64,000 nt of DNA, taken from Rugalucina vietnamica (lineage: Eukaryota; Mollusca; Bivalvia; Lucinida; Lucinidae). The translations under genes were made by a program, and so were the position numbers. The stretch is taken from positions 54,787,356 through 54,851,355 of the forward strand of contig OZ024874.1 of NCBI GenBank assembly GCA_964017185.1. Direction: 5' to 3'. The notes below the pieces were generated by a model. It saw only the letters and a list, made by a program, of their open reading frames with translations, made no database searches and was not told where the DNA came from. Below, piece by piece: positions 33,141 to 50,394 of this stretch; the first letter of the stretch is position 1, and every line of letters begins with the position of its first letter.

Positions 33141-33305
33141 GAAGCCTCCGTGATGCAGTGGTTATGCCACTCGCCTTGTAAACCAGGGGTCGCAGGTTCG
33201 ATCCCGGCCTTCTCCAGTCCGTCGAATGGGACTATAAACCGAGGTCCCCTCACCATATGACCTTAGCTGTTGGTGGAACGTCAAACCCCAATCAACCAAC
33301 CATCT
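33141..33305 (+). repeat. SINE with tRNA-Thr-like head
   Basis: Box A-like GTGATGCAGTGGTTATGCC, an anticodon-region text CCTTGTAAACCAGGGGTC that matches tRNA-Thr(UGU), and box B GGTTCGATCCC. A tail follows with AAACCGAGGTCCCC, ATATGACCTTAGCTGTTGG and CAATCAACCAACC. Reverse relatives lie at 38466 and 46446. Confidence 0.75.
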
Positions 33306-33535
33306 CTCAGCTGTACGTCAGTTTGTGAAACCATAATAGACATTTTTCACTTTTGAACGTAAATGCTGCTGGTGCGTGCGGTTACGACTTTCTGTGTGAT
33401 GGGGGACGACTCGTGAGGGCATATGTGAGACTAAGACGAGGGGCAATATGAAGAATTACACAGTCAAAGCTACCAACAGCCCAACGGAGACGAATTAAAT
33501 AAGACATGCAATAAATGTTATAGTGTAGGACGTCT

Positions 33536-33609
33536 ATCTCTGTAGCTCAGTAGGTAGCAAGCTAGGATTCAAAACGAAAGGTTTTGGGTTCGAGTCCTGG
33601 TCGGACCGC
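33536..33609 (+). other. tRNA-like Pol III promoter block in left end, copy 1
   Basis: GTAGCTCAGTAGGTAGCAAG (box A) and GGTTCGAGTCCTGG (box B) lie about 35 bp apart. The acceptor stem does not close, so it is not a tRNA gene. The same block recurs at 40916-40986 and, in mirror, at 40424-40482 and 48610-48672. Confidence 0.7.
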
Positions 33610-34434
33610 TTATTTTTCTTTTCTTTATTTGTCTCCCCTGTGACAATAAAGCTAAGGAAATAAAAAAATGTATTATCAGCTGATTATATTTATTGGCGAA
33701 TGCAAGAATCAGGAAATGCCCTTGTGCATAAAATACTTAAATCGTAAAGGAAATGAAGTGCGAGACGGCACCTCACATTAATGTTTCTCTCTTGTTGACT
33801 TTTAACCTGTTGAAATCGACAGCTCGATCGTATTTGTTTTGGTAGAAGAGCTGATCTTCGAGCGATCCTCATGTCAATATTTCTTTCTGGGGGACATAAA
33901 AATGTTCATATTCTGAAGGCTTGTACAGGAATAATGTGGCTAGGATAAGTTAGCCACCCTGAATGACTTTAAATGTTTTCCGCGGACGTAAGGCACTAAC
34001 TCAAATAGTACAGTGTACCTGCACAGACATATCTATATATATAAGGTGTAAAAACTACAGTTTCACGTGCTGTCTCGTGAGCGAACATAATTCATTTGGC
34101 ATGTTTATACATGTATTTCAAACAGATACTCGAAAGCTTGGTGGGGTTTATTTTGTTGATGTTTCGTTTTGATCCCATACAACACCCATCTGCATGTCAT
34201 AAGGGCGATATCCTAACTACATTATGCATATAGCCATACTAATAATTTGAGGTTTTGTAGGCCTTCAACAGTATTTCAGCCATATCGAGTGCGATAATTA
34301 CGAATTTTAGATGATTTTTGCAAGCCACAGGCTTTCTGTATGATCCTCATTTATTCTCTTGTAGTATGCGTGCTGTGTTATTTTCAAGTAAATAAATGAT
34401 AATAAAACTAAGAAACATCTAGTCTTTTTTTAGC

Positions 34435-36075
34435 TCACCTGAGCCGAAGGCTCACAAGGAGAGCTGATAGGATGGCCATGATCCGTCGCCCGTCGTCCGT
34501 CTTCGTCGTCGTCCACAATCTTCTTCTCTGAAACCACTTGGCCAATCAAGTTGAAATTTTATGTGGAGCCTCCTTGTGTAGCGGCATTTCAAGTTTGATC
34601 GCGGAATCCATGTCACATGACCAATATGGCCGCCACGCCTATATATGGTAAAAACCACTCAAAAATCTTCTTCTCCAGAACCGGCAGGCCTATTCCCACA
34701 GAACTTGGTATTTACCATCAGTGACTCCAGCCCATCAAAGTTTGGCAAAATGATGACCCTGGGATGACCTTGACCTATTTTACGGCAAGGTCAATTTTGG
34801 AAACATAGGCTTTTACATGGGAAAAAGTGAAAACTATTGATTTATTTTTAAATTGCAGTCAGAGACCTGAAAAGAGGTAGATGCAGACAACTAATGGAGT
34901 AGATAAAAGTATGTGATTAAATTAGGTCAAGGTCATCTCTTGACCTTGGCCAGTCTGTTTTGCATACACACTTTTCATACGTCTTCATCTCTGAAACCGC
35001 TTGGCCAATCAAGTTGAAATTTTATGTGGAGCATCCATGGGTAGGGGGAACGAAAGTTTGATCATGAAATCCAAGTCACATGACAAAGATGGCCGCCATC
35101 AGTGACTCCAGCCCATTATAGTTTGATAAAATGATGGCCCTGGGATGACCTTGACCTGTTTTACGGCAAGCTTAATTTTGGAAACAGACTGTTACATGGG
35201 AAAACGTGAAAACTATGGATATTTCGAAAACGATTGCAGCCTGAGACCTGAAAAAAGGCAGATGCAGACAACTAATGGAGTAGATGTAAGTATGTTATTA
35301 ATTTAGGTCAAGGTCGTCTCTTGACCTTGACCAGTCTGTTTTTCATACACACTTTTAAAACATCTTCATGGCGGCCCCCGTGGTCGAGCGGTTGAGAGCG
35401 CTGTTTCTTAATCACTCGATCATCTCACCGCTGTCTCTGGTGTAGGATCGCGCCCCACACTGGCCACATGTGAGACAAGCCAAGTCCTGTTTGCGGGTGT
35501 GCCAGGTGGTTTTTCTCGGGGTTCTACCGTTTTCGCCCCACCTACTGATTGGCCCGTTTCATATGAGCTGAAATTATCTTGAAAGAGACGTTAACCTGAA
35601 TATAAAAAAAAACTTCACCTCTGAAACCGCTTGGCCAATCAAAGTGAAATTTTATGTGGAGCATCTATGGGTAGGGGGAACGAAAGTTTTTTTGTGAAAT
35701 CTGGGTTACATGACCAAGATGGCCGCCACGCCCATATATGGCTAAAACCACTCAAAAATCTTCTTCACCAGAGCCGGCAGGCCGATTTTCACGAAAATCG
35801 GTATGTAGCATCGATGACTCCAGCCCATCATAATTTGATAAAATGATGACCCTTGGATGACCTTGATTTGCGGATCCAGACATTTTTAAGAGAGGGGGTC
35901 CAACCAAAATGGTAAAATATTGTCGCAGACGAGTGGGGGGGGGGTCCAACCCCCCCCCACCCCCAAAAAAATAATCCCAAAATTACCTTTTTAGGTAAAC
36001 TTTTCAGATTCCGGGGGGGGGGGGGGGTTCGGACCCCCGGTGAGCGTTTACAGGACCATTGGTCCTCTGGTTTCA
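34435..36075 (+). repeat. Family G repeat inside giant element copy 1
   Basis: Starts with the hairpin AGCTCACCTGAGCCGAAGGCTCA and ends with GAGCGTTTACAGGACCATTGG and TCCTCTGG. It holds about three G body units and is split by a tRNA-derived SINE at 35371. Poly-G and poly-C runs (35936-35966; 36014-36028) lie near the end. Confidence 0.8.
35371..35614 (+). repeat. tRNA-derived SINE inserted in family G, copy 1
   Basis: Head GCGGCCCCCGTGGTCGAGCG, GTTGAGAGCGCTG, and a box B-like GGATCGCGCCCC. The body has GCGGGTGTGCCAGGTGG, and the tail TTTCATATGAGCTGAAATTA then TCTTGAAAGAGACGTTAA with an A-rich end. The same insertion exists in element copy 2, so it predates their split. Confidence 0.8.
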
Positions 36076-36443
36076 TTACGTGTTGCTAGACGGAATATTT
36101 CCATCGGTATTCTGTTAGACCTCTCCATACACAGAAAAGGAGCGAGGTCACGAAGTGTATCGGAGTGCAGGTTAGCCAGCTGATCAAACGTGCTGCGAAC
36201 CTTGCTTAACCCTAAATTCTGAATTTTAAGCGCGCATACACACTCTAACTCACAAACACACACTCACGCAAACACGTTCCGTAGAGGACTTTGTCTCGCA
36301 GTGGCTCAGTCAGTCGCCTCTTAAATTCACATGGCAAAAATAAATACGTAGTTGATATAAGACAGGTACAAAATGATTTAATAAGAACATTTGACTCGTT
36401 TCGCAGGTTGAGCGCGAGAACGAAACGCCTACAAATGAAAATT

Positions 36444-36677
36444 GAGCCTGTGCGTGAGAAAACCAACAATTTGGGTTCCTACCAGGTCCGACACAAATCG
36501 GGCTGTACAGTCACAAAAGGTTGTTAGAGGCTTGAAATTTTGTAGTAAAGTAGAAGAGGAATTGTACTATCCGAGTGGCGACAACAAAAGCTCTGATCAG
36601 CTTCGCGGTTACCGCGAAGCTGATCTGCACCTTTGTTTTCACCCAAGCATATTGTTGGTTTTCTGATGCAGTGGCTC
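36444..36677 (+). mobile_element. MITE family A, copy 7, with a natural empty site
   Basis: 234 bp between AATT (36440-36443) and AATT (36678-36681). The second giant element has GAAAATTGTTGTC at 43466 with no MITE, the exact uninterrupted target. The element therefore moved after the two giant copies separated, or came with a different source copy. Confidence 0.9.
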
Positions 36678-37239
36678 AATTGTTGTCTTTCCGTTAAACT
36701 GTCTAATTCTGATGGAACAAGGAACCAGAAGTGACCTACCTTTGACACGAAATATTTTCTAAAATCGCATCATATATATATCACTTATCATGTTTGCCAT
36801 TAAAGATGCGTTACTCGTTCAGTGCGAGTCGGATTTACAAATGCTTGGCGCGAATAAAATGCCTTCATTTTAACAGCTTCCAATGCAGAATTCGATTATT
36901 TTAGACACTCGTGTGTATAACTAGGCGTCGCTCGTTCGATAAACCGAGGTCCCGGTTTCGTATGACCATAACTGTTGGTGGGAAAAACCAATATCAACTA
37001 TTTGTTATCGCCATGTGACATTTTACATACTGGCTTATGTATATACGTACATTGGTTCTGCTAAGCTACATTTTCACGTGTTTTTCGTGAACGCACAGAA
37101 AACTTTATACATGTATAAATGGCATGATTTACGATTTGAAACATAAGTTGATCTTTAATTTTATGTGCAGTTTTTATTCTACGCCTTACAACGTTTTGAA
37201 ATATTTCAAGTCATCTCGAGCATGGTCGGTTATCCATAT

Positions 37240-38275
37240 CAGGATAACGTGTCCGTGAATACCCCATGAACCACACTTTTATACAGCAAAACTTTGGTAT
37301 GCATGGGTATACCTATTTTAAGCTCACATGAGCCCTTCGGCTCAAAAAGCGAGCTTATAGGATGACCATGCCCCCGTCGTCCGTCCGACGTCGTCCGTCA
37401 ACAATTTCCAGTATATTCTCCTCTGAAACCAAATGGCAAACCAAAGTTAAACTGCTTGCGGAGCATCCTTAGGAAGGGGGAACGAAAGTTTGCATAAATG
37501 ACCCAGGTCACATGACTAAGATGGCCGCCATAGCTATAAATAGCAAAAACCTTTAAAACAATTTCTTCTCAGAAGCAGAAGACCTATGATTTTGAAACTA
37601 AGTTTGAAGCATCAGGCAATAGTGTTCTACAAAGTTGGTATACATCATAATGCTGGGATGACCTTGACCTATTTTATGGCAAGGTCAACTTAGGTCGCCC
37701 ATGCATTTAAATGGGGAAAATTTGTTAAATGTAATTAAATGGGTGGAAACTCGCGATGAGCATGCAAAGGTACTGAAGATTTATGTCCGTGAAAACATTT
37801 AGTCCCCAGGGGTGTGTCTGCTCCTGCCCGGGGGCTATATACATGCATATGATCAAAATATTCAAACATCTCTGCAACCGCATGGCCGATCAAAGCCACA
37901 CTTCATGGAAAGGGAACGGAAGATTGTATAAATGGCCGCCATGGCTATAAACTGCAAACACCTTTAAAATGTTCTTCAGAACCAGTAGGCCTATGATTTT
38001 GAAACTTGGCATTAAGCATCTACAAATTTTAAACATGGCCTAAATCATGACCCAGGGATGATATTGACCTATTTTACGGCAAGGTCAACTTAGGATGCCC
38101 ATGCATCTAAAAACACAGATTGTGAGTACTCGTTAGAACTGCCTCTGCGAGGCAGTTTTAGCGTGTACCAACAATCTATGTTTTGAGCAAAATAAAAAGA
38201 TAAAAATGTTGAACTGAAAATTTTCATTTTTTACAACTTTAAAAACACTGTATATTGCTTGTTAAGGTTTTGTTA
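37240..38275 (+). mobile_element. MITE family C split by a family G repeat (copy 1)
   Basis: The family C left part (GTGTCCGTGAATACCCC) stops at about 37319. Family G (AGCTCACATGAGCCC..) runs 37320-38105, and the C right part with palindrome GAACTGCCTCTGCGAGGCAG resumes to about 38275. The counterpart in giant copy 2 is 45285-46280. Confidence 0.75.
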
Positions 38276-38465
38276 TGCTAGCGTCAAGATACACGGCACC
38301 ATTTTAATGCACATGTTTAACACATGCTGACAACAGAGCTACATGTACAACACCTTGATCATTCTTAACCTTATGGGCATTTTTTTTATTGCGTCCGGAA
38401 TCGGGCGAGCATAAATGCGCATAAGCTTCCTACTCAATCAGAATTTACATAAATAATAAATTTAA

Positions 38466-38612
38466 TTGGTTTGTTGATTTGAGGTTTAACGTTAATCCAA
38501 CAGCAAAGGTCATATGGAAACGAGACATCAGTTTATAGTATCATCCGACAGACTTAAGGATCCCGGGATCAAACCCGCGGTCCCTGGTTTAAAAGGACGA
38601 ACACATGCCGTT
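38466..38612 (-). repeat. tRNA-Thr-like SINE, reverse (copy 1)
   Basis: On the minus strand, AAACCAGGGACCGCGGGTTTG and ATCCCGGGATCC correspond to the anticodon arm and box B of the SINE at 33141, followed by TATGACCTTTGCTGTTGG. The counterpart in copy 2 is 46446-46625. Confidence 0.65.
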
Positions 38613-38680
38613 AACACTAACTGTTTTCGGCTTGTCAAGCAGCAATGTGGTTTGATAACTGATCCTGCTTGATAAAATCT

Positions 38681-38733
38681 TTTTTTTTTTTTCTTTTTTT
38701 CTTTTTTTTTTTCTTTTTTTTTTTTTTTTTATT

Positions 38734-38764
<31 letters not shown>
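38681..38764. repeat. Long poly-T with few interruptions
   Basis: About 84 bases, almost all T. At the matching place giant copy 2 has a 10-T run followed by about 250 bp of ordinary sequence (46696-46953) instead. Lysine-rich ORFs on the minus strand are artefacts of this run. Confidence 0.85.
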
Positions 38765-38765
<1 letters not shown>

Positions 38766-38799
38766 AAAAAAGCAATATCGCTTTGGCAACAACCATCAC

Positions 38800-39000
38800 C
38801 AAGACAATGAACACTTCGTCGTAGGTTGCTGCCCAATTGATCAGTCTTACAATCACAGGTGACACAAACCAAATTCTGCTTGTGGGTGTGCCAAGTCGTT
38901 TTCTCAGGGTTCTCCCCTCCCCCCCCCCCTCCACCTTGTTACTGATTTATCCATCTCATATGAACTTAAATAATCTTGAACGGGACGAAAATTGTATAAA
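38800..39000 (-). repeat. SINE body fragment
   Basis: CTTGTGGGTGTGCCAAGTCG and CATCTCATATGAACTTAAAT then AATCTTGAACGGGACG match the body and tail of the SINE at 35371, but the tRNA-like head is diverged. The same piece is at 46955-47180 in copy 2. The strand given is uncertain. Confidence 0.5.
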
Positions 39001-39837
39001 AACGAAATTATGATCTGAAATGAGCACGTTCAGACTCTTATCTGTAATCAAGTAACAATAGAATGACCTGGAATCGATACAATTAAATTTCACATCCTCA
39101 CTAAGGTGGGCGTAGTGTAATTCTGGGCCCTGATTAGATTTTAACAGATAGCAAAACTTCTCCGATGTTACTCGCGCCTATAAGAAAAAAAAATGCATTT
39201 ACATTCCATCATGCACGCATGCTTAATGTAAACCATATAACGAGGAATATTCGGGGTCTCACGTGCAAATAACAACTATTTACATACTGGACCTTGGTCT
39301 CGACCGAAAGACGGAGTTACGCGTTGAATTGAACGCGCGGCCCGTTTTACGAGGCGACTGACTGAACCACTACGACATGGAGTGCTTTATGGAAACACTT
39401 TAGCAACTCATAAAAATAATATTGTGTTAGTTTTGTTTTAATCATATTTATTTGAATTCAACCAGGTAAACAACACGCATACAATATCACACAGAATAAA
39501 TATGGATCAAAAAGAAAACTTATGTCTTGCCAAATTAATTTACTACATCGTAACCAGCACACTGGATATGGCTGAATTACTGTTGAAGGTCTACAATAAA
39601 CAAAATTAGTTGTATGGCTTGGCAAAATGTAGCTACATGTAGGATGTTGCCTCCATCGCACTTCGTATGGCATGCAGATGACTGTCGAATGAGCGAAACT
39701 TCGACATCAAGCTGATAATCTGTTTGTAATATAAACCGAATGAATTATGTTCGCTCACGAGACAGCACGTGAAACTGTAGTTTTACATCTAATAAACACA
39801 GATATACATGTATCTGAACATGTACACTGTACTATTT

Positions 39838-40082
39838 GATTTATTGTCTTGCGCATTTTAGTTCAGTTTTACGTCCCTTTCAAGATTATTTCAGCTCACC
39901 AATCAGTAGGTGGGGTGAAAACGTGAGTACCCTAAGAAAAACCACCTGGCACTCCCGCAAGTTGAACTTGGCTTGTATCATATGTGGCCAGTGTGGGGCT
40001 CGAACACACACAAGACACAGCGGTGAGATGAACGAGTGATTAAGAAACAGCGCTCTCAACCGCTCGGCCACGGGGGCCGCTT
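39838..40082 (-). repeat. tRNA-derived SINE in right end of giant copy 1
   Basis: On the minus strand the head reads GCGGCCCCCGTGGCCGAGCG and GTTGAGAGCGCTG, with box B GTTCGAGCCCC and tail CTGAAATAATCTTGAAAGGG. It interrupts the right inverted end. The same insertion lies at 48020-48263 in copy 2. Confidence 0.8.
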
Positions 40083-40680
40083 AGTCATTAGAGGCGGTCA
40101 ACTTATCCTAGCCGCATTATCTGTACCAGCCTTCAGAAAATAAATGTTGACGTGGGTCCGATCCTCTGCCGATTACGATCAAGCTACCGGCTTAAATCGG
40201 TGAAAAGACAAGAAGACTTAGTGAAAAACCTAAACGTGCGGACTGCCTTCTCACTGCACACTTTAATCCACAAATTAACGATTTTAGTATTAAATGCAGT
40301 AGTGCATTTTGTGAGTTTTGCATTTTTTTTCTTTTCTTTTCTTTTTCATTTTCTAAGCTATATTGTCACAGATGCGAAAAAAGGAAGCAATTAAGAATAG
40401 AAAAAGAATTTTTGTCCTAGCAGGACTCGAACCCAGGACCTTTTGGTTTTATTCCATACATGCTACCTACTGAGCTACAGAGTAAGACGTCGTGGACTAT
40501 TTCTTTTTTGCCTGTCTTGTTTAATTGGTCTCCGTTAGGCTATAGGTAGTTTTACCAAGTTATTATATATATCGCCCCTCGTCATCGTCTCAAATATGCC
40601 CTCACGAGTCGTCCCCCATCACACCGAAAATCGTAACCGCACGCGCCAGCAACATTTACGTTCAAAAGTGAAAAATGTCT

Positions 40681-40711
40681 AATATAAGATGTAGCTGAAT
40701 GTTCGAATATT
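40681..40711. other. 31-bp spacer between the two giant elements
   Basis: Starts AATATAAGATG and ends TCGAATATT, leaving AAT next to copy 1 and ATT next to copy 2. It contains no part of either element. Confidence 0.7.
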
Positions 40712-41540
40712 AGACATTTTTCACTTTTGAACGTAAATGCTGCCGGTGCGTGCGGTTACGACTTTCTGTGTGATGGGGGACGACTCGTGAGGGCATATGT
40801 GAGACTAAGACGAGGGACAATATGAAGAATTACACAGTCAAAACTACCAACAGCCCAACGGAGACGAATTAAATAAGACATGCAATAAATGTTATAGTGT
40901 AGGACGTCTATCTCTGTAGCTCAGTAGGTAGCAAGCTAGGATACAAAACGAAAGGTTCTGGGTTCGAGTCCTGGTCGGACCGCTTTTTTTCTTTTCTTTA
41001 TTTGTCTCCCCTGTGACAATAAAGCTAAGGAAATAAAAAAAATGTATTATCAGCTGATTATATTTATTGGCGAATGCAAGAATCAGGAAACGCCCTTGTG
41101 CATAAAATACTTAAATCGTAAAGGAATTGAAGTGCGAGACGGCACCTCACATTGTTGACTTTTAACCTGTTGAAATCGACAGCTGGATCGTATTTGTTTT
41201 GGTAGAAGAGCTGATCTTCGAGCGATCCTCATGTCAATATTTCTTTCTTGGGGACATAAAAATGTTCATATTCTGAAGGCTTGTACAGGAATAATGTGGC
41301 TAGGATAAGTTAGCCACCCTGAATGACTTTAAATGTTTTCCGCGGACGTAAGGCACTAACTCAAATAGTATAGTGTACCTGTACAGACATATGTATATAT
41401 ATAAGGTGTAAAAACTACAGTTTCACGTGCTGTCTCGTGAGCGAACATAATTCATTTGGCATGTTTATACATGTATTTCAAACAGATACTCGAAAGCTTG
41501 GTGGGGTTTATTTGGTTGATATTTCGTTTTGATCTTTTTT

Positions 41541-43098
41541 TAGCTCACCTGAGCCGAAGGTTCACAAGGAGAGCTGATATGATGGCCATGATCCGTCGTC
41601 CGTCGTCCGTCTTCGTCCACAATCTTCTTCTCTGAAACCTATTGGCCAATTAAGTTGAAATTTTATGTGGCGCTTCCTTGTGTAGCGGCATTTCAAGTTT
41701 GATCGCGAAATCCATGTCACATGACCAATATGGCCGCCACGCCCATATATGGTAAAAACCACTCAAAAATCTTCTTCTCCAGAACCGACGGACCGATTCC
41801 CACGAAACTTGGCATTTACCATCAGTGACTCCAGCCCATCAAAGTTTGGCAAAATGATGACCCTGAGATGACCTTGACCTATTTTACGGCAAGGTCAATT
41901 TTGGAAACATAGGCTTTTACATGGGAAAAAGTGAAAACTATTGATTTTTTTTTTTAAACGATTGCAGCCAGAGACCTGAAAAGAGGTAGATGCAGACAAC
42001 TAATGGAGTAGATAAAAGTATGTGATTAAATTAGGTCAAGGTCATCTCTTGACTTTGGCCAGTCTGTTTTCCATACACACTTTTCATACATCTTCATCTC
42101 TGAAACCGCTTGGCCATTCAAGTTGAAATTTTATGTGGAGCATCCATGGGTAGGGGGAACGAAAGTTTGATCATGAAATCCGAGTCACATGACAAAGATG
42201 GCCGCCATCAGTGACTCCAGCCCATTATATTTGATAAAATGATGGCCCTGGGATGACCTTGACCTGTTTTACGGCAAGCTTAATTTTGGAAACAGGCTGT
42301 TACATGGGAAAAGTGAAAACTATGGATTTTTCGAAAACGATTACAGCCTGAGACCTGAAAAAAAGGCAGATGCAGACAACTAATGGAGTAAATGTAAGTA
42401 TGTTATTAATTTAGGTCAAGGTCATCTCTTGACCTTGACCAGTCTGTTGTTCATACACACTTTTAAAACATCTTCATGGCGCCCCCGTGGTCAAGCGGTT
42501 GAGAGCGCTGTTTCTTAATCACTTGATCATCTCACCGCTGTCTCTGGTGTAGGATCGCGCCCCGCACTGGCCACATGTGAGACAAGCCAAGTTCTGTTTG
42601 CGGGTGTGCCAGGTGGTTTTTCTCGGGGTTCTGCCGTTTTCGCCCCACCTACTGATTGGCCCGTTTCATATGAACTGAAATTATCTTGAAAGAGACGTTA
42701 AACTGAATATAAGAAAAAATCTTCACCTATGAAACCGCTTGGCCAATCAAAGTGAAATTTTATGTGGAGCATCTATGGGTAGGTGGAACGAAAGTTTGTT
42801 TGTGAAATCTGGGTTACATGATCAAGATGGCCGCCACACCCATATATGGCTAAAACCACTCAAAAATCTTCTTCACCAGAGCCGGCAGGCCGATTTTCAC
42901 GAAAATCGGTATGTAGCATCGATGACTCCAGCCCATCATAATTTGATAAAATGATGACCCTTGGATGACCTTGATTTGCGGATCCAGACATTTTTACGAG
43001 AGGGGGTCCAACCAAAATGGTATTTCAGATTCCGTGGGGGGGGGGGGGGGGGGTCCGGACCCCCGGTGAGCGTTTACAGGACCATTGGTCCTCTGGTT
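41541..43098 (+). repeat. Family G repeat inside giant element copy 2
   Basis: Counterpart of 34435-36075. It starts with AGCTCACCTGAGCCGAAGGTTCA and ends GGACCATTGGTCCTCTGG. It is split by the SINE at 42477. The poly-G block is longer and the poly-C block is missing relative to copy 1. Confidence 0.8.
42477..42718 (+). repeat. tRNA-derived SINE inserted in family G, copy 2
   Basis: Same insertion point and sequence as 35371-35614, with small changes in the head (GCGCCCCCGTGGTCAAGCGG). Confidence 0.8.
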
Positions 43099-43788
43099 TT
43101 CATTACGTGTTGCTAGACGGAATATTTCCATCGGTATTCTGTTAGACCTCTCCATACACAGAAAAGGAGCGAGGTCACGAAGTGTATCGGAGTGCAGGTT
43201 AGCCAGCTGATCAAACGTGCTGCGAACCTTGCTTAACCCTAAAACAGGACAACAATATTCTGAATTTTAAGCGCGCATACACACTCTAACTCACAAACAC
43301 ACACGCACGCAAACACGTTCCGAAGAGGACTTTGTCTCGCAGTGGCTCAGTCAGTCGCCTTTTAAAATCACATGGCAAAAATAAATACGTAGTTGATATA
43401 AGACAGGTACAAAATGATTTGACTCGTTTCGCAGGTTGAGCGCGAGAACGAAACGCCTACAAATGAAAATTGTTGTCTTTCCGTTAACCTGTCTAATTCT
43501 GATGGAACAAGGAACCAGAAGTGACCTTTGACACGAAATATTTTCTAAAATCGCATCATATATATATATACCACTTATCATGTTTGCCATTAAAGATGCG
43601 TTACTCGTTCAATGTGAGTCGGATTTACAAATGCTTGGTGCGAATAAAATGCCTCCATTTTAACAGCTTCCAATGCAGAATTCGATTATTTTAGACACTC
43701 GTGTGTATAACTAGGCGTCGCTCGTTCGATAAACCGAGGTCCCGGCTTCTTATGACCATAACTGTTGGTTGGAAAAACCAATATCAAC

Positions 43789-44550
43789 AAGCAAATTCAG
43801 AGAATTTATGTCCCCCGCCTTAATTGTTTAGTTACACAAATATATCTGACAATAATGTATATCCAAATCACATGCATTTACTTCATGTCACAGTGTCAAA
43901 CATTAATCTGAGGATTATATTCAATCCACATGCAAATCTTCAAATCATGGTCAGGACATCTGTACAGTTTGAAAAGAATCAGAATAAAACTGAGGGAGGA
44001 GTTTGCACACAAGGTACACAATGTCCATTCACTTTCATTGTATAAATGCCTGAAAAACGACTAAGTTCAAATTGCGAAAAAGTGTCAAAAATTAACCTGA
44101 GGATTATATCCAAAGCACATGCATATCTTCAAAGCATCATCAAGACATCTGTAAAGTTTCAAAAGAATCTGAATTAAAAACTGAAGGAGGAGTTGCGCAC
44201 ACAAGGCACCCATTTTCATTATCAAGGCATTCATTTTCATTATCAAAATGCCCGAAAAATGATTAAGTTCAAATTGCGAAAAAAGTGTCAAAAATTAATC
44301 TGAGGATTATATCCAAACCACATGCACATCTTCAAAGCATGATGAAGACAACTGTAAAGTTTCAAAAGAATCGGAATAAAACTGTAGGAGGAGTTGCGCA
44401 CACAAGGTACATACTCCTATAGGGGGACGGACGGAAGGACGGACGGACGGAAGGACGGACGGAAGGACGGACGGACGGAAGGAAGGACGGAAGGACGGAA
44501 AGCCAAAAACTATGTCCCTCCGCTTTTCTTCGAAAAGGCGGGGGACAAAC
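43789..44550 (+). mobile_element. 762-bp insertion with short inverted ends, absent from copy 1
   Basis: Ends read TTTATGTCCCCCGCCTT and AAGGCGGGGGACAAA. The body is three units of about 200 bp (TCTGAGGATTATAT, CACATGCA-ATCTTCAAA, GGAGGAGTT-GCACACAAGG), then a GGAC/GGAAGGAC run at 44421-44505. Copy 1 has the uninterrupted target CAATATCAACTATTTG (37003). AAC lies at both sides of the insertion, a 3-bp duplication. Confidence 0.85.
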
Positions 44551-44591
44551 TATTTGTTATCGCCATGTGACATTTTACATACTGGCTTATG

Positions 44592-45085
44592 ACGCTGGCT
44601 TACTCAGTCTGTGAGTCCTGGTTTTTGATTCATCAGGATGTTTATCATGATTTATTTGTTTGTTCTTGATGATTCATTGACTAGTTAGAGATTCACCACG
44701 AGGACCGAATAACTAACTAAATGTTATGAACCACTGCAGAAGCTGAGGGTGAGGTTATGGCCATGTAAAACCGGTTTAAGCCCGCCAGTAACTTTGTGTT
44801 ACTGATCGTTCCAAGTCGATACTTCTGTGGTGGTTCTTTTTGTTTTATGTCTTGGTGTTTAAATTTTTTTTTGTGCTGTTGGCGCCTTATGTATGTTTTC
44901 ATATTTTTAGTTAAGTTAAGGTAACTGAGTGGCCACCTATTGGGAAAATAGCTGCCCATTCGGCTTACGATTGTTTCATGGTATAAGTACCTGATTGTTA
45001 GTTTGGTTTTATCCCACCTCGGTTTTTGGAGTGGGAATCTTTTTCTGATTGCGCCTTTTCCTGATCTTTGCCTACTTGTACCTTT
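44592..45085 (+). mobile_element. 494-bp insertion with TTATG target duplication
   Basis: Copy 1 has the empty target GGCTTATGTATATAC. Here TTATG lies on both sides (44587-44591 and 45086-45090). The body has no TIRs. Its right end, GCCTACTTGTACCTTTTT, is found alone at 62139-62166, and a stretch around GGTGAATCTCTAACTAGTC is found reversed at 50400-50570. A fixed right end with variable left end and 5-bp duplications suggests a retroposon (SINE or truncated LINE). Confidence 0.75.
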
Positions 45086-45284
45086 TTATGTATATACGTA
45101 CATTGGTTCTGCTAAGCTACATTTTCACGTGTTTTTCGTGAACGCACAGAAAACTTTATACATGTATACATGGCATGATTTACGATTTGAAACATAAGTT
45201 GATCTTTAATTTTATGTGCAGTTTTTTATTCTACGCCTTACAACGTTTTGACATATTTCAAGTCATCTCGAGCATGTTCGGTTA

Positions 45285-46280
45285 TCCATATCAGGATAAC
45301 GTGTCCGTGAATACCCCATGAACCACACTTTTATAGTCCTTCGGCTCAAAAAGCGAGCTTATAGGGTGACCATGCCCCCGTCGTCCGTCCGACGTCGTCC
45401 GTCAACAATTTCCGTGATATTCTCCTCTGAAACCAAATGGCAAACCAAAGTTAAACTGCTTACGGAGCATTCTTAGGAAGGGGGAACGAAAGTTTGCATA
45501 AATGACCCAGGTCACATGACTAAGATGGCCGCCATAGCTATAAATATCAAAAACCTTTAAAACAATTTCTTCCCAGAAGCAGAAGTCCTATGATTTTGAA
45601 ACTAAGTTTGAAGCATCAGGCAATAGAGTTCTACAAAGTTGGTATACATCATAATGCTTGGATGACCTTGACCTATTTCATGGCAAGGTCAACTTAGGTC
45701 GCCCATGCATTTAAATGGGGAAATAAGTTAAATGTAATTAAATGGGTGGAAACTCGCAATGAGCATGCAAAGGTACTGAAGATTTATGTCCGTGAAAACA
45801 TTTAGTCCCCGGGGGTGTGTCTGCTCCTGCCCGGGGGCTATATACATGCATATGACCAAAATATTCAAACATCTCTGCAACCGCATGGCCGATCAAAGCC
45901 ACACTTCATGGAAAGGGAACGAAAGATTGTATAAATGGCCGCCATGGCTATAAACTGCAAAAACCTTTAAAATGTTCTTCAGAACCAGTAGGCCTATGAT
46001 TTTGAAACTTGGCATTAAGCATCTACAAAGTTTATACATGGCCTAAATCATGACCCAGGGATGATATTAACCTATTTTACGGCAAGGTCATCTTAGGATG
46101 CCCATGCATCTAAAAACACAGATTGTGAGTACTCGTTAGAACTGCCTCTGCGAGGCAGTTTTAGCGTATACCAACAATCTATGTTTTGAGCAAAATAAAA
46201 AGATAAAAATGTTGAACTGAAAATTTTCATTTTTTACAACTTTAAAAACACTGTATATTGCTTGTTAAGGTTTTGTTATG
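45285..46280 (+). mobile_element. MITE family C split by family G (copy 2)
   Basis: Counterpart of 37240-38275. The join lacks the AGCTCACATGAGCC hairpin start (ACACTTTTATAG directly followed by TCCTTCGGCTC), a deletion relative to copy 1. Confidence 0.7.
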
Positions 46281-46445
46281 CTAGTGTCAAAATTCACGGC
46301 ACCATTTTGGTGCATATGTATTACACATGCTGACAACAGAGCTACATGTACAACACCTTGATCATTTTTAACCTTATGGGCATTTTTTGCGTCCGGAATC
46401 GGGCGAGCATAAATGCGCATAAGCTTCTTACTCAATCAGAATTTA

Positions 46446-46625
46446 CATAAATAATAAATTTAATTGGTTTGTTGATTTGCGGTTTAACGTTAATCCAACA
46501 GCAAAGGTAATATGGAAACGAGACATCAGTTTATAGTATCATCCGACAGACTTAAGGATCCCGGGATCAAACCCGCGGTCCCTGGTTTAAAAGGACGAAC
46601 AACACATGCCGTTAACACTAACTGT
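46446..46625 (-). repeat. tRNA-Thr-like SINE, reverse (copy 2)
   Basis: Counterpart of 38466-38612 with the same CCCGGGATCAAACCCGCGG block. Confidence 0.65.
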
Positions 46626-48019
46626 TTTCGGCTTGTCAAGCAGCAATGTGGTTTGATAACTGATCCTGCTTGATAAAATCTTGTTTTTTTTTTCAAAGGG
46701 CCGTGGGACAAAAATTCAACAGCCAAACACAGCACAATATTAGGTTCACGGATGTTGTTTCGTTTGTTTACATATAAAAAGCCGGTAAATTGAGCACGTA
46801 AAATGTCTGCGTGATATACTGTGCATGAATATGTATATTCAGGAATTGTCTATCAGTATAAGCACCATCGTAAATGCCTGCGATACAACAAAAGTCCTTA
46901 CAGCAAAGATTGATGCAACATCGCATTACATGTGATAAAATGGAGTAATTGAAAGAAGCAATATCGCTTTGGCAACAAACATCACCAAGACAATGAACAC
47001 TTCGTCGTAGGTTGCTGCCCAATTGATCAGTCTTACAATCACAGGTGACACAAACCAAATTCTGCTTGTGGGTGTGCCAAGTCGTTTTCTCAGGGTTCTC
47101 CTCTCTCCCCCCACCTTGTTACTGATTTATCCGTCTCATATGAACTAAAATAATCTTGAACGGGGCGAAAATTGTATAAAAACGAAATTATGATCTGAAA
47201 TGAGCACAATCAGACTCTTATCTGTAATCAAGTAACAATATAATGACCTGGAATCGATACAATTAAATTTCACATCCTCACTAAGGTGGGCGTAGTGTAA
47301 TTCTGGGCCCTGATTAGATTTTAACAGATAGCAAAACTTCTCCGATGTTACTCGCGCCTATAAGAGAAAAAAAAATGCATTTACATTCCATCATGCACGC
47401 ATGCTTAATGTAAACCATATAACGAGGAATATTCGGGGTCTCACGTGCAAATAACAACTATTTACATACTGGACCCTGGTCTCGACCGAAAGACGGAGTT
47501 ACGCGTTGGATTGAACGCGCGGCCCGTTTTACGAGGCGACTGACTGAACCACTACGACATGGAGTCCTTTATGGAAACACTTTAGCAACTCATAAAAATA
47601 ATATTGTGTTAGTTTTATTTTAATCATATTTATTTGAATTCAACCAGGTAAACAACACGCATACAATATCACACAGAATAAATATGGGTCAAAAAGAAAA
47701 CTTATGTCTTGCCAAATTAATTTACTACATCGTAACCAGCACACTGGATATGGCTGAATTACTGTTGAAGGTCTACAATAAACAAAATTAGTTGTGTGGC
47801 TTGGCGAAATGTAGCTACATGTAGGATGTTGCCTCTATCGCACTTCGTATGGCATGCAGATGACTGTCGAATGAGCGAAACTTCGACATCAAGCTGATAA
47901 TCTGTTTGAAATATAAACAGAATGAAATATATTCGCTCACGAGACAGCACGTGAAACTGTAGTTTTACATCTAATAAACACAGATATACATGTATCTGAA
48001 CATGTACACTATACTATTT

Positions 48020-48263
48020 GATTTATTGTCTTGCGCATTTTAGTTCAGTTTTACGTCCCTTTCAAGATTATTTCAGCTCACCAATCAGTAGGTGGGGTGA
48101 AAACGTGAGCACCCTAAGAAAAACCACATGGCACTCCCGCAAGTTGAACTTGTCTTGTATCATATGTGGCGAGTGTGGGGCTCGAACACACACAAGACAC
48201 AGCGGTGAGACGAACGAGTGATTAAGAAACAGCGCTCTCAACCGCTCGGCCACGGGGGCCGCT
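48020..48263 (-). repeat. tRNA-derived SINE in right end of giant copy 2
   Basis: Counterpart of 39838-40082 at the same site in the inverted end. Confidence 0.8.
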
Positions 48264-48878
48264 AAGTCATTAGAGGCGGTCAACATATCCTAGCCGCATT
48301 ATCTGTACCAGCCTTCAGAAAATAAATGTTGACGTGAGGATCGGTCGCGGGTCCGCTCTTCTGCCGATTACGATCAAGCTACCTGCTTAAATCGGTGAAA
48401 AGACAAGACGACTTAGTGAAAAACCTATACGTGCGGACTGCCTTCTCATTACATACTTAAATCCACAAATTAACGATTTAAGTATTAAATGCAGTAGTGC
48501 ATTTTGTGAGTTTTGCATTTTTTTCTTTTCTTTTCTTTTTCATTTTCTAAGCTATATTGTCACAGATGCGAAAAAAGGAAGCAATTAAGAATAGGAAAAG
48601 AATTTTTGTCCTAGCCGGACTCGAACCCAGGACCTTTTGGTTTTATTCCATACATGCTACCTACTGAGCTACAGAGTAAGACGACGTGGACTATTTCTTT
48701 TTTGCCTGTCTTGTTTAATTGGTCTCCGTTAGGCTATAGGTAGTTTTTACCAAGTAATTATTCATATCGCCCCTCGTCATCGTCTCAAATATGCCCTCAC
48801 GAGTCGTCCCCCATCACACCGAAAATCGTAACCGCACGCGCCAGCAACATTTACGTTCAAAAGTGAAAAATGTCTATT

Positions 48879-49595
48879 TCCTTATCAACAAGGTACTGAA
48901 TAATAATATTCTTGATTTCATGTTTTAACATAGATGTTTTAACACTGGACAGCTTATAATGAAAGCTCACTCTTTTCTGACCAAGTTTAACCGCTCTTGA
49001 GAAGGCACAGCAATGGAATCTTCAAGTTTGAATGACATGATTGCTTTTTGCTGGTATGTCAAACAGTGATTATTCTTTCAAATTCAGAATTAGTTTTGTG
49101 CATAGAATGTTCCGATCCCGGGAGACCCCAAAATGTTACGCTTATCTGTTACGAGCAAGCGTAACTAGACAAAATAACGATATTTTAAACCCTCAACGCC
49201 CTCAAAATATTATCGAGGATCTGGCTAATCCAGAAAAGAACAACCAAAAGTTTTAAACTTAATAATTTAATCAGACAAATAAACAAATAAATGCAATCAA
49301 TACAAATAAATAAATGAATGAATATATAAATAAGTAAAAAAAAATAAATGACTTACAAGACAAGTGTCTAAATAAATCCTTGTCCTTCAAAATTTTAGTC
49401 CACTGATTTCCTCAATCCAGTTCCCAGAATTCAAGTCCATATGAGCACAATATATATGAAATAAAAATAAGCTATTTCAGTTTCATCTGGAATTTTCTTA
49501 GCCTATCTATAATGTGTTTATAACTTCTTAATTATATAATAGTTATAAAAATAATCTATCACTTGAAGTTCTAGACTCTTTAAATTCTGGCAAGA
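48879..49595. other. No gene seen
   Basis: AT-rich sequence with an AAATAAATGAATG-like run at 49270-49350. The 71-codon frame at 49041-49256 has no recognisable domain and no repeat match. Confidence 0.4.
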
Positions 49596-49599
49596 CAGA

Positions 49600-50245
49600 G
49601 GTCCTGAAGAAAGCAGGGATGAAAAGCATGCATACCGTCTTAAAGCTAGCAAAGCTAAGATGGACTGGCAATGTTATAAGAATGCCTGATGAGCGACTTC
49701 CAAAGAAAGTCTTCTATGGAGAACCACAGGAGGGAAAGCGCTCTCAAGGTGGTCACATTACGAAAACATGCCCATGCAATATACAGAGATTTTTCAAGTT
49801 GTAAAAAATGATAATTTTCAGCAGAATTTCCATGGTATTTTTCTTATTTTTGCTCAAAACATAGATTGTGGGTACTCGTTAGAACCGCCTCGCCGAGGCG
49901 GTTCTAACGAGTACCCACAATCTATGTTTTGGAGCAAAAATAAGAAAAATAAGTTTACCCCTCCATACCCCAGTTTTGCTATATAAAAGTGGGGTTTAAG
50001 GGGGTACATATTGCACGGACATGTTTTCCTGATGAGAAGAAACGCTACAAAGTCTCTGAAGGATTTCGATATACCAATGGGTCTTGGGAACAGACTGCAC
50101 AGGAGCGATCAAAGTGGCGAAGTCACAACTCTTTATGAAAGAAAGTGAATATGTGAAGCAGAAAGAAAGCGCAGAGCACGCAAAGCCAAGACCAATGGGC
50201 CACCAGCAGATCCCATGACATTGGCTTGCTCTACTTGCAGATAGA
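49600..50245 (+). mobile_element. LINE ORF2 tail, interrupted by a MITE
   Basis: Left part reads LKLAKLRWTGNVIRMPDERL, then KKVFYGEPQEGKRSQGG. After the MITE it continues with KKRYK, then GSWEQTAQERSKW, and a basic segment (ERKRRARKAKTNGPP) ending near a CSTCR motif. This is the C-terminal region after reverse transcriptase in a common invertebrate LINE. There is a small internal loss after KKRYK. The upstream part is missing. Confidence 0.75.
49756..50034. mobile_element. MITE family C, full copy with near-perfect cruciform
   Basis: 279 bp. Ends CATTACGAAAACATGCCC and GGACATGTTTTCCTGATG. The central palindrome (49856-49930) has 37-bp arms without mismatch around one base; past one bulge it extends to about 49837-49951. 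It sits inside the LINE tail, giving relative ages. Confidence 0.9.
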
Positions 50246-50394
50246 CCTAGTCATTCATCAACAAACTCATCTATACACATGAACCTTATTCATGAAATAA
50301 TGAGGGACGAACGACCACAAATTCTGGACAAAATAAAATATACAATCAGGGTTACTCCCCTTTGATCATTCTTGGAAAAATCTATCATATAACA

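Follow-up and report, generated by a model that had tools for sequence, protein, structure and literature searches.

The 64,000 nucleotide window of the Rugalucina vietnamica genome analysed here (C6:54787356-54851355, contig OZ024874.1, in an assembly of 1.09 Gb in 47 contigs) contains two adjacent copies of a long element with terminal inverted repeats (TIRs), each of which includes sequences resembling an RNA polymerase III (Pol III) promoter. The two copies, U1 (33338-40680, 7343 bp) and U2 (40712-48875, 8164 bp), are complete and both lie on the forward strand. They are delimited by the terminal motif AGACATTTTTCACTTTTGAACG, which was found exactly four times in the window when up to 3 mismatches were permitted (chance expectation 0.01 matches), namely at 33338 (+), 40659-40680 (-), 40712 (+) and 48854-48875 (-). 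As read from the flanks and the spacer, U1 has AAT on each side (33335-33337 and 40681-40683) and U2 has ATT on each side (40709-40711 and 48876-48878), the target-site duplications (TSDs), and the 31 bp between the two copies consists of AAT, 25 bp of non-element DNA (40684-40708) and ATT. These features agree with an initial annotation, made from the letters alone, that described two same-direction units of 7.3 and 8.2 kb with mirrored ends, separated by 31 bp and flanked by AAT and ATT, respectively.

The TIRs begin AGAC and close GTCT, and the element ends together with the duplication can be written as AGACATTTTTCAC/AWT. The left TIR of U1 (33338-34430, +), as defined by alignment and conservation, is best conserved in its outer ~118 bp and has patchy homology to ~1.1 kb. 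The inverted right TIR of U1 (39411-40680, -) contains an insert resembling a short interspersed element (SINE) at ~39899-40080. In U2, the aligned portions are the first 619 bp of the left TIR (40712-41330, +) and 48263-48875 (-) for the inverted right TIR. When the consensus sequences of the left and right ends of the family to which U1 and U2 belong (family U) are compared, 109 of the outer 118 columns are equal (~92-93 %), and further inward the identity falls to ~70-75 %. The TIR homology of U1 continues piecewise to ~1.1-1.27 kb and is broken by SINE-like inserts. The inverted ends are indeed long, as initially annotated, but the length of 0.8-0.95 kb given for them is somewhat short for U1.

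The genome was searched using left-end and right-end queries, and 40 candidates per query were scored from among 2000 (left) and 2804 (right) found at first look. For each query, all 40 of the scored candidates matched and, because of this and the numbers of first-look candidates, the genome contains at least dozens of copies and may contain thousands. The loci that were fetched are the best-scoring ones rather than a random sample. The outer flanks of the 38 returned loci differ from one another, except where another element abuts. Hence, copies are dispersed, and their differing flanks contradict the possibility that the ends lie within a larger host duplication. No matches to the terminal motif were found in viral contigs or in bacterial and archaeal genomes.

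The window and the fetched loci together include 54 distinct ends, 16 left and 32 right ends of family U, and 2 left and 4 right ends of a second, related family, X, whose ends differ from those of U by 14-16 %. Left and right ends differ by 20-22 %. Divergence from the consensus, measured in 20-base windows with X lumped in, was 0-6 %, and mostly 1-3 %, for both left-type (17) and right-type (34) ends. The uninterrupted copies (U1, U2, L039 and L040) are 6.7-8.2 kb long.

In all eight cases where both ends of a U copy could be paired, the 3 bp flanks are identical and are either AAT or ATT. AAT flanks U1, L040, a copy on contig C14 (L043 and L049) and a copy on C1 (L033 and L047), and ATT flanks U2, L039, the copy represented by L041 and L042, and a copy on C16 (L037 and L048). 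For the C1 and C16 copies, the ends were paired by position and orientation and the interior was not read. The 3-mer flanking the 54 distinct ends is AAT in 25, ATT in 24, AGT in three, and ACT and ATA in one each, and T occupies the next base outward (position -4) at 51 of the ends. As 49 of 54 ends are flanked by AAT or ATT and the next base is nearly always T, the duplication as read from these flanks is AWT, 3 bp, within a TAWTA target. The left and right flanks are TATT and ATTT for U2, and AAAT and AATA for the C14 copy. A shift of the frame in either direction is therefore excluded, barring mutation, and the same two sets of flanks rule out a 5 bp TSD comprising the whole of TAWTA.

The initial annotation had left undecided whether the pair arose by double insertion or by tandem duplication. 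The first is favoured and the second is not. U1 and U2 share 97.0 % identity, and their identities to two copies on other contigs are much the same (U1 to L039, 97.9 %; U1 to L040, 96.7 %; U2 to L039, 97.6 %; U2 to L040, 97.3 %). Because the TSDs differ, the spacer contains both TSDs around 25 bp of other DNA, and the mutual identity does not exceed that to copies elsewhere, U1 and U2 are read as separate insertions. Duplication of one element together with its flank would account for the common direction and the 31 bp distance, and one locus elsewhere, L044 (below), does show part of an element duplicated in tandem along with host flank. However, the unlike TSDs, the unlike outer flanks and the level of identity make it very improbable here. 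At L044 (C6:39459100-39468000), a segment comprising the ~3.1 kb at the left of a U copy and its host flank is repeated in tandem at a distance of 3533 bp, with the same flank, which is, as judged from the repeated flank, a partial segmental duplication.

Each of the four TIRs in the window contains one inward-facing box A-box B unit, as the initial annotation had stated. In the window, there are exactly four matches to the strict pattern TRGYNNANNNG-N33-GGTTCGANTCC, at 33543-33597 (+) and 40423-40477 (-) in the left and right TIRs of U1, and at 40917-40971 (+) and 48617-48671 (-) in those of U2, and 100 shuffles gave none. A looser pair (spacing 20-70, looser box B) was found at 50 places, all at a distance of 150-260 bp from the end of an element, and nowhere else in the 216 kb of 53 loci. 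These 50 places correspond to 54 pattern matches and 36 distinct sequences, with overlapping loci counted twice. The boxes lie ~205 bp from the end of the element, exact GGTTCGANTCC is present in 46 of the 54 distinct ends, and 53 of them have a run of five T at 250-300 bp. In tRNA genes, boxes A and B start at positions 8 and 52, a distance of 44, and the distance between the starts is also 44 in the consensus of all four TIR types (left and right of U, UL and UR, and left and right of X, XL and XR). The predicted transcript, starting 12 bp before box A and reaching the T-run, would be 83-88 nt in the four consensuses. With box A, box B at tRNA spacing and a T-run terminator, the TIRs have the make-up of a type-2 Pol III unit, and the inward-facing Pol III-type promoters initially proposed are supported at the level of sequence.

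The boxes are also more strongly conserved than their surroundings. Of the 23 box columns, 21 are invariant across the four TIR types, vs 102 of the 189 other columns in positions 119-330 (Fisher p = 3e-4), and the true position of the boxes ranks first of 157 offsets. In pairwise comparisons, an excess was seen for UL-UR (p = 0.0025), XL-XR (p = 0.034) and UR-XR (p = 0.033). The outer stretch of the TIR, in which 103 of 118 columns are invariant, is also conserved, so constrained sites unconnected with Pol III do exist in these TIRs, and the inner blocks might likewise be sites for the transposase or another factor that resemble tRNA boxes by happenstance, with no involvement of Pol III. We consider this unlikely, as the conserved columns are a box A and a box B at the spacing of a tRNA, and there is a T-run where a Pol III terminator would be expected.

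No structured RNA appears to have been retained. ARAGORN found no tRNA genes in the element sequence searched. In Rfam searches there was no tRNA match with E ≤ 5 in 33300-48900 and none at any unit, the sole weak tRNA match (E 9.9) being at L024 3309-3365. The initial annotation was therefore right that the ends lack a closed tRNA fold. When the units were folded and compared with shuffles (z = -2.15, 0.61, -0.09 and -0.08), only that in the left TIR of U1 was better than most shuffles. A tRNA or other structured RNA at the units was thus rejected and, because the boxes are conserved in spite of the missing tRNA and fold, the data favour a DNA promoter rather than an RNA as what is being conserved. 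Sub-threshold miRNA matches at unit junctions are most likely an effect of the palindromes there. The unit in the right end of X may resemble tRNA-Lys, a likeness seen by eye.

Some of these observations weigh against a promoter kept by selection. Box B is inexact in eight of 54 ends, including four of 16 U-left ends, and T4 occurs within the unit in two of 54, including the left end of U1, where it lies between the boxes. The box excess is weak for UL-XL (p = 0.065). Moreover, the four TIR types compared are related and not independent, XL is derived from two ends and XR from four. The boxes could then be a passive remnant of a SINE or tRNA fragment caught in an ancestral TIR, with the excess conservation due to chance or to the sampling of few lineages. 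The loss of any tRNA or RNA fold fits this reading, as do the inexact copies of box B and the small number of related TIR types. It is opposed by the number of invariant box columns and their first rank among the offsets, by the constant distance of 44 and by the near-universal T-run. We regard a passive remnant as a substantial possibility, while hesitating to call it probable.

The interior of the element appears to be non-coding. Where families U and X can be clearly aligned, the identity is mostly 0.83-0.91 in the TIRs and the core alike. No part of the core is better kept than the TIRs, as expected of neutral, non-coding sequence. Other windows have 0.5-0.7 identity and are not homologous, including ~2 kb of U (~1000-2950 in U1) that has no clear counterpart in X, and it is because such windows are included that the identity over the whole length is 0.78-0.81. 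A Pfam search of six frames of U1, with stops written as X, gave nothing above the curated cut-offs and six sub-threshold matches, and neither U1 nor U2 includes an open reading frame (ORF) of at least 120 aa. The initial view that the units carry no protein gene is upheld by both searches for U1, and for U2 by the ORF scan. The U interior at 34430-38120, and in the matching parts of U2, includes several diverged repeat copies (families D1-D7) at a spacing of ~380-1100 bp, which X lacks in part. A near-perfect palindrome outside the units, at 49838-49948 (55 nt arms, 1 nt between, 85 % complementary), is related to the 83 nt segments 38110-38192 and 46113-46195 within them.

Reading inward from the ends gave 58 stretches, with only ~2.2 kb of element available at most loci. 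Gaps of <150 bp aside, 46 of these are wholly U or X, and the remaining 12 contain 13 foreign pieces of at least 150 bp. On extended reading, those at the C7 and C6 loci proved to be in U copies with inserts. The foreign pieces in L015 and L041 are from a long interspersed element (LINE), and the others were judged by ORF scan alone, without Pfam. A 1067 aa ORF in L041, the only long ORF encountered in a copy, was considered as a gene of the element and rejected, as it belongs to the inserted LINE (RVT_1, E 1.6e-33). This LINE occupies L041:2140-5343 (C6:6094750-6104749), and the uninterrupted ORF has RVT_1 and endonuclease matches. Remains of the same LINE family are found to the right of U2 at 49595-49755 (94 %) and 50037-50306 (76 % identity to the L041 LINE).

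Of the 36 end loci fetched from outside the window, six (L004, L007, L011, L017, L024 and L028) have a second element abutting the first with one shared 3-mer between them. An array on C7 contains three elements in a row, X_a-ATT-X_b-AAT-U, and hence a second flush junction. Of the seven junctions, six join a left end to a right end and one (L011) joins two right ends. In this C7 array (L045 and L004, C7:52385500-52395000), each junction forms a palindrome that is centred on the 3 bp and spans at least ~100 bp. Overlapping end matches at C17 13700750-13700761 represent a further array candidate.

The arrays can be explained by the target. The first base of the element is A and its last is T, so that a TAWTA target would be restored at both junctions on insertion, and later copies could therefore insert flush against the first to produce arrays with a single shared 3 bp flank. 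The parts of the window outside the units contain 3.8 TAWTA sites per kb and, from this density and up to 2804 candidates, flush insertion by chance would be expected in roughly 0.1 % of insertions. Recombination between copies, or circular or replicative intermediates, might have produced the arrays instead. The left-to-right joins in six of seven junctions are in keeping with this, as are the unequal flanks of both of the complete X copies, each of which is in an array (X_b, ATT/AAT; X_c, AGT/ATT). Inversion via recombination between the TIRs, converting ATT to AAT, would fit X_b, and X_c would need one base change. However, exactly one 3 bp AWT is kept at the junctions, U and X are joined in three arrays (L004, L007 and L024), which tandem amplification of a single copy would not give, and the junction in L011 is right to right. 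An origin of the arrays other than by repeated insertion into a rebuilt target is thus possible, though doubtful.

Inverted ends, a fixed 3 bp duplication in eight of eight U copies and dispersed copies with different flanks are the hallmarks of cut-and-paste transposons with TIRs, and the earlier suggestion of a large non-autonomous DNA element is supported by the dispersed ends and the equal 3 bp flanks. We conclude that U1 and U2 are probably independent insertions of a large, non-coding cut-and-paste transposon, each TIR of which has retained a Pol III promoter. A putative transposase would act in trans on this element, with the outer ~118 bp of the TIR as its probable binding site. Insertion would duplicate AWT within TAWTA, restoring TAWTA at either junction, and further copies would insert flush at the restored sites, leading to arrays with one shared 3 bp flank. 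Most likely, an ancestor gained the Pol III unit from a tRNA gene or a SINE, and the promoter boxes would have been kept afterwards while the tRNA fold was lost. Pol III or TFIIIC may bind the unit in the TIR, and this binding may benefit the element, for example if the TIR stays open for the transposase.

Further points weigh against this conclusion, in addition to the unequal flanks of the two complete X copies. The 58 inward stretches, at most loci covering ~2.2 kb of the element, yielded no transposase. As the transposase-bearing relative called for by the initial annotation was not among the stretches read, the transposase is purely inferred. Targeting of solitary insertions to Pol III units, which was also considered, is unsupported, as a box-B-like site is present within 250 bp in only one of 40 outward flanks and within 1.5 kb in two of 40. 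The single close case is U1, where a SINE-type, tRNA-like sequence at ~33150-33230 includes the box-B-like GGTTCGATCCC 138 bp outside the left end.

More tentatively, the element may represent a class of DNA transposons, for which we suggest the name TIRp3, in which both TIRs carry a type-2 Pol III promoter maintained by selection, occupancy by Pol III or TFIIIC is part of transposition, and TAWTA is self-rebuilt into arrays. If so, occupancy would keep the ends accessible, insulate them or yield a short TIR RNA, and the principle of the TRIMp3 retrotransposons (below) would have been carried over to cut-and-paste elements. Pol III promoters in terminal repeats are known from a few long terminal repeat (LTR) elements, where they are able to make the template for copying. 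Cut-and-paste elements require no such template, and the same module, conserved in the inverted ends of one of them, would raise the question of what Pol III or TFIIIC does for the transposon. A DNA transposon could also scatter many tRNA-like promoters, which bears on the annotation of small RNAs and on chromatin boundaries, and a duplication that restores its own target would offer a simple and testable way for arrays of transposons and long palindromes to arise.

Among known DNA transposons, Academ elements produce TSDs of 3-4 bp, the target of PIF/Harbinger elements is TWA, and the P-like Galileo makes longer TSDs. PIF/Harbinger was rejected, as AWT, in the frame that the flanks of U2 and of the C14 copy establish, is unlike TWA, though a typical TSD of 2-3 bp is given for this superfamily (PMC3627910). 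The 3 bp TSD matches that of Zator (PMC10045372), and Zator and Academ are, among molluscs, reported nearly exclusively from bivalves (PMC10294476). The likeness to these two is one of TSD length. Galileo, Tetris and the Mutator-like elements with long TIRs resemble the element described here in their long inverted repeats and non-coding copies, but the relatives of MuDR generate TSDs of 4-10 bp rather than 3 bp (PMC10045372). Because no transposase was found, the element is filed in no superfamily; 3 bp fits Zator or Academ, and AWT does not fit the TWA of Harbinger. MER6, a Mariner-derived miniature inverted-repeat transposable element with a SINE V domain (PMC6887750), is likewise a DNA transposon that absorbed part of a SINE. 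However, it is described as carrying the V domain and not a promoter retained in both TIRs.

As judged by titles and the openings of abstracts, no description of Pol III boxes in the TIRs of a DNA transposon was found among the papers listed by the literature searches, and the phrase 'DNA transposon' is absent from the main text of PMC10886601, one of two accounts of the TRIMp3 elements. These elements, Cassandra (5S), Helenus (tRNA) and Ajax (5S), are small LTR retrotransposons that are non-autonomous and contain a Pol III promoter in both LTRs (PMC10886601, PMC7215508). They share with the element described here the lack of autonomy and a Pol III promoter from a small-RNA gene in both terminal repeats, as well as the conservation of boxes A and B without that of a functional tRNA, and Cassandra, too, forms tandem arrays (PMC10886601, PMC7215508). 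They differ in that their LTRs are direct and the ends here are inverted, and Helenus has, in animals, a TSD of 4 bp rather than 3 bp, and a length of 311-1263 bp rather than the 6.7-8.2 kb of uninterrupted copies (PMC10886601, PMC7215508). Also unlike TRIMp3, the RNAs predicted for the element stop inside the TIR and would therefore provide no template for movement. TRIMp3 is the nearest principle among the publications consulted, and the best reading is that the element in U1 and U2 is an inverted-repeat counterpart of Cassandra and Helenus.

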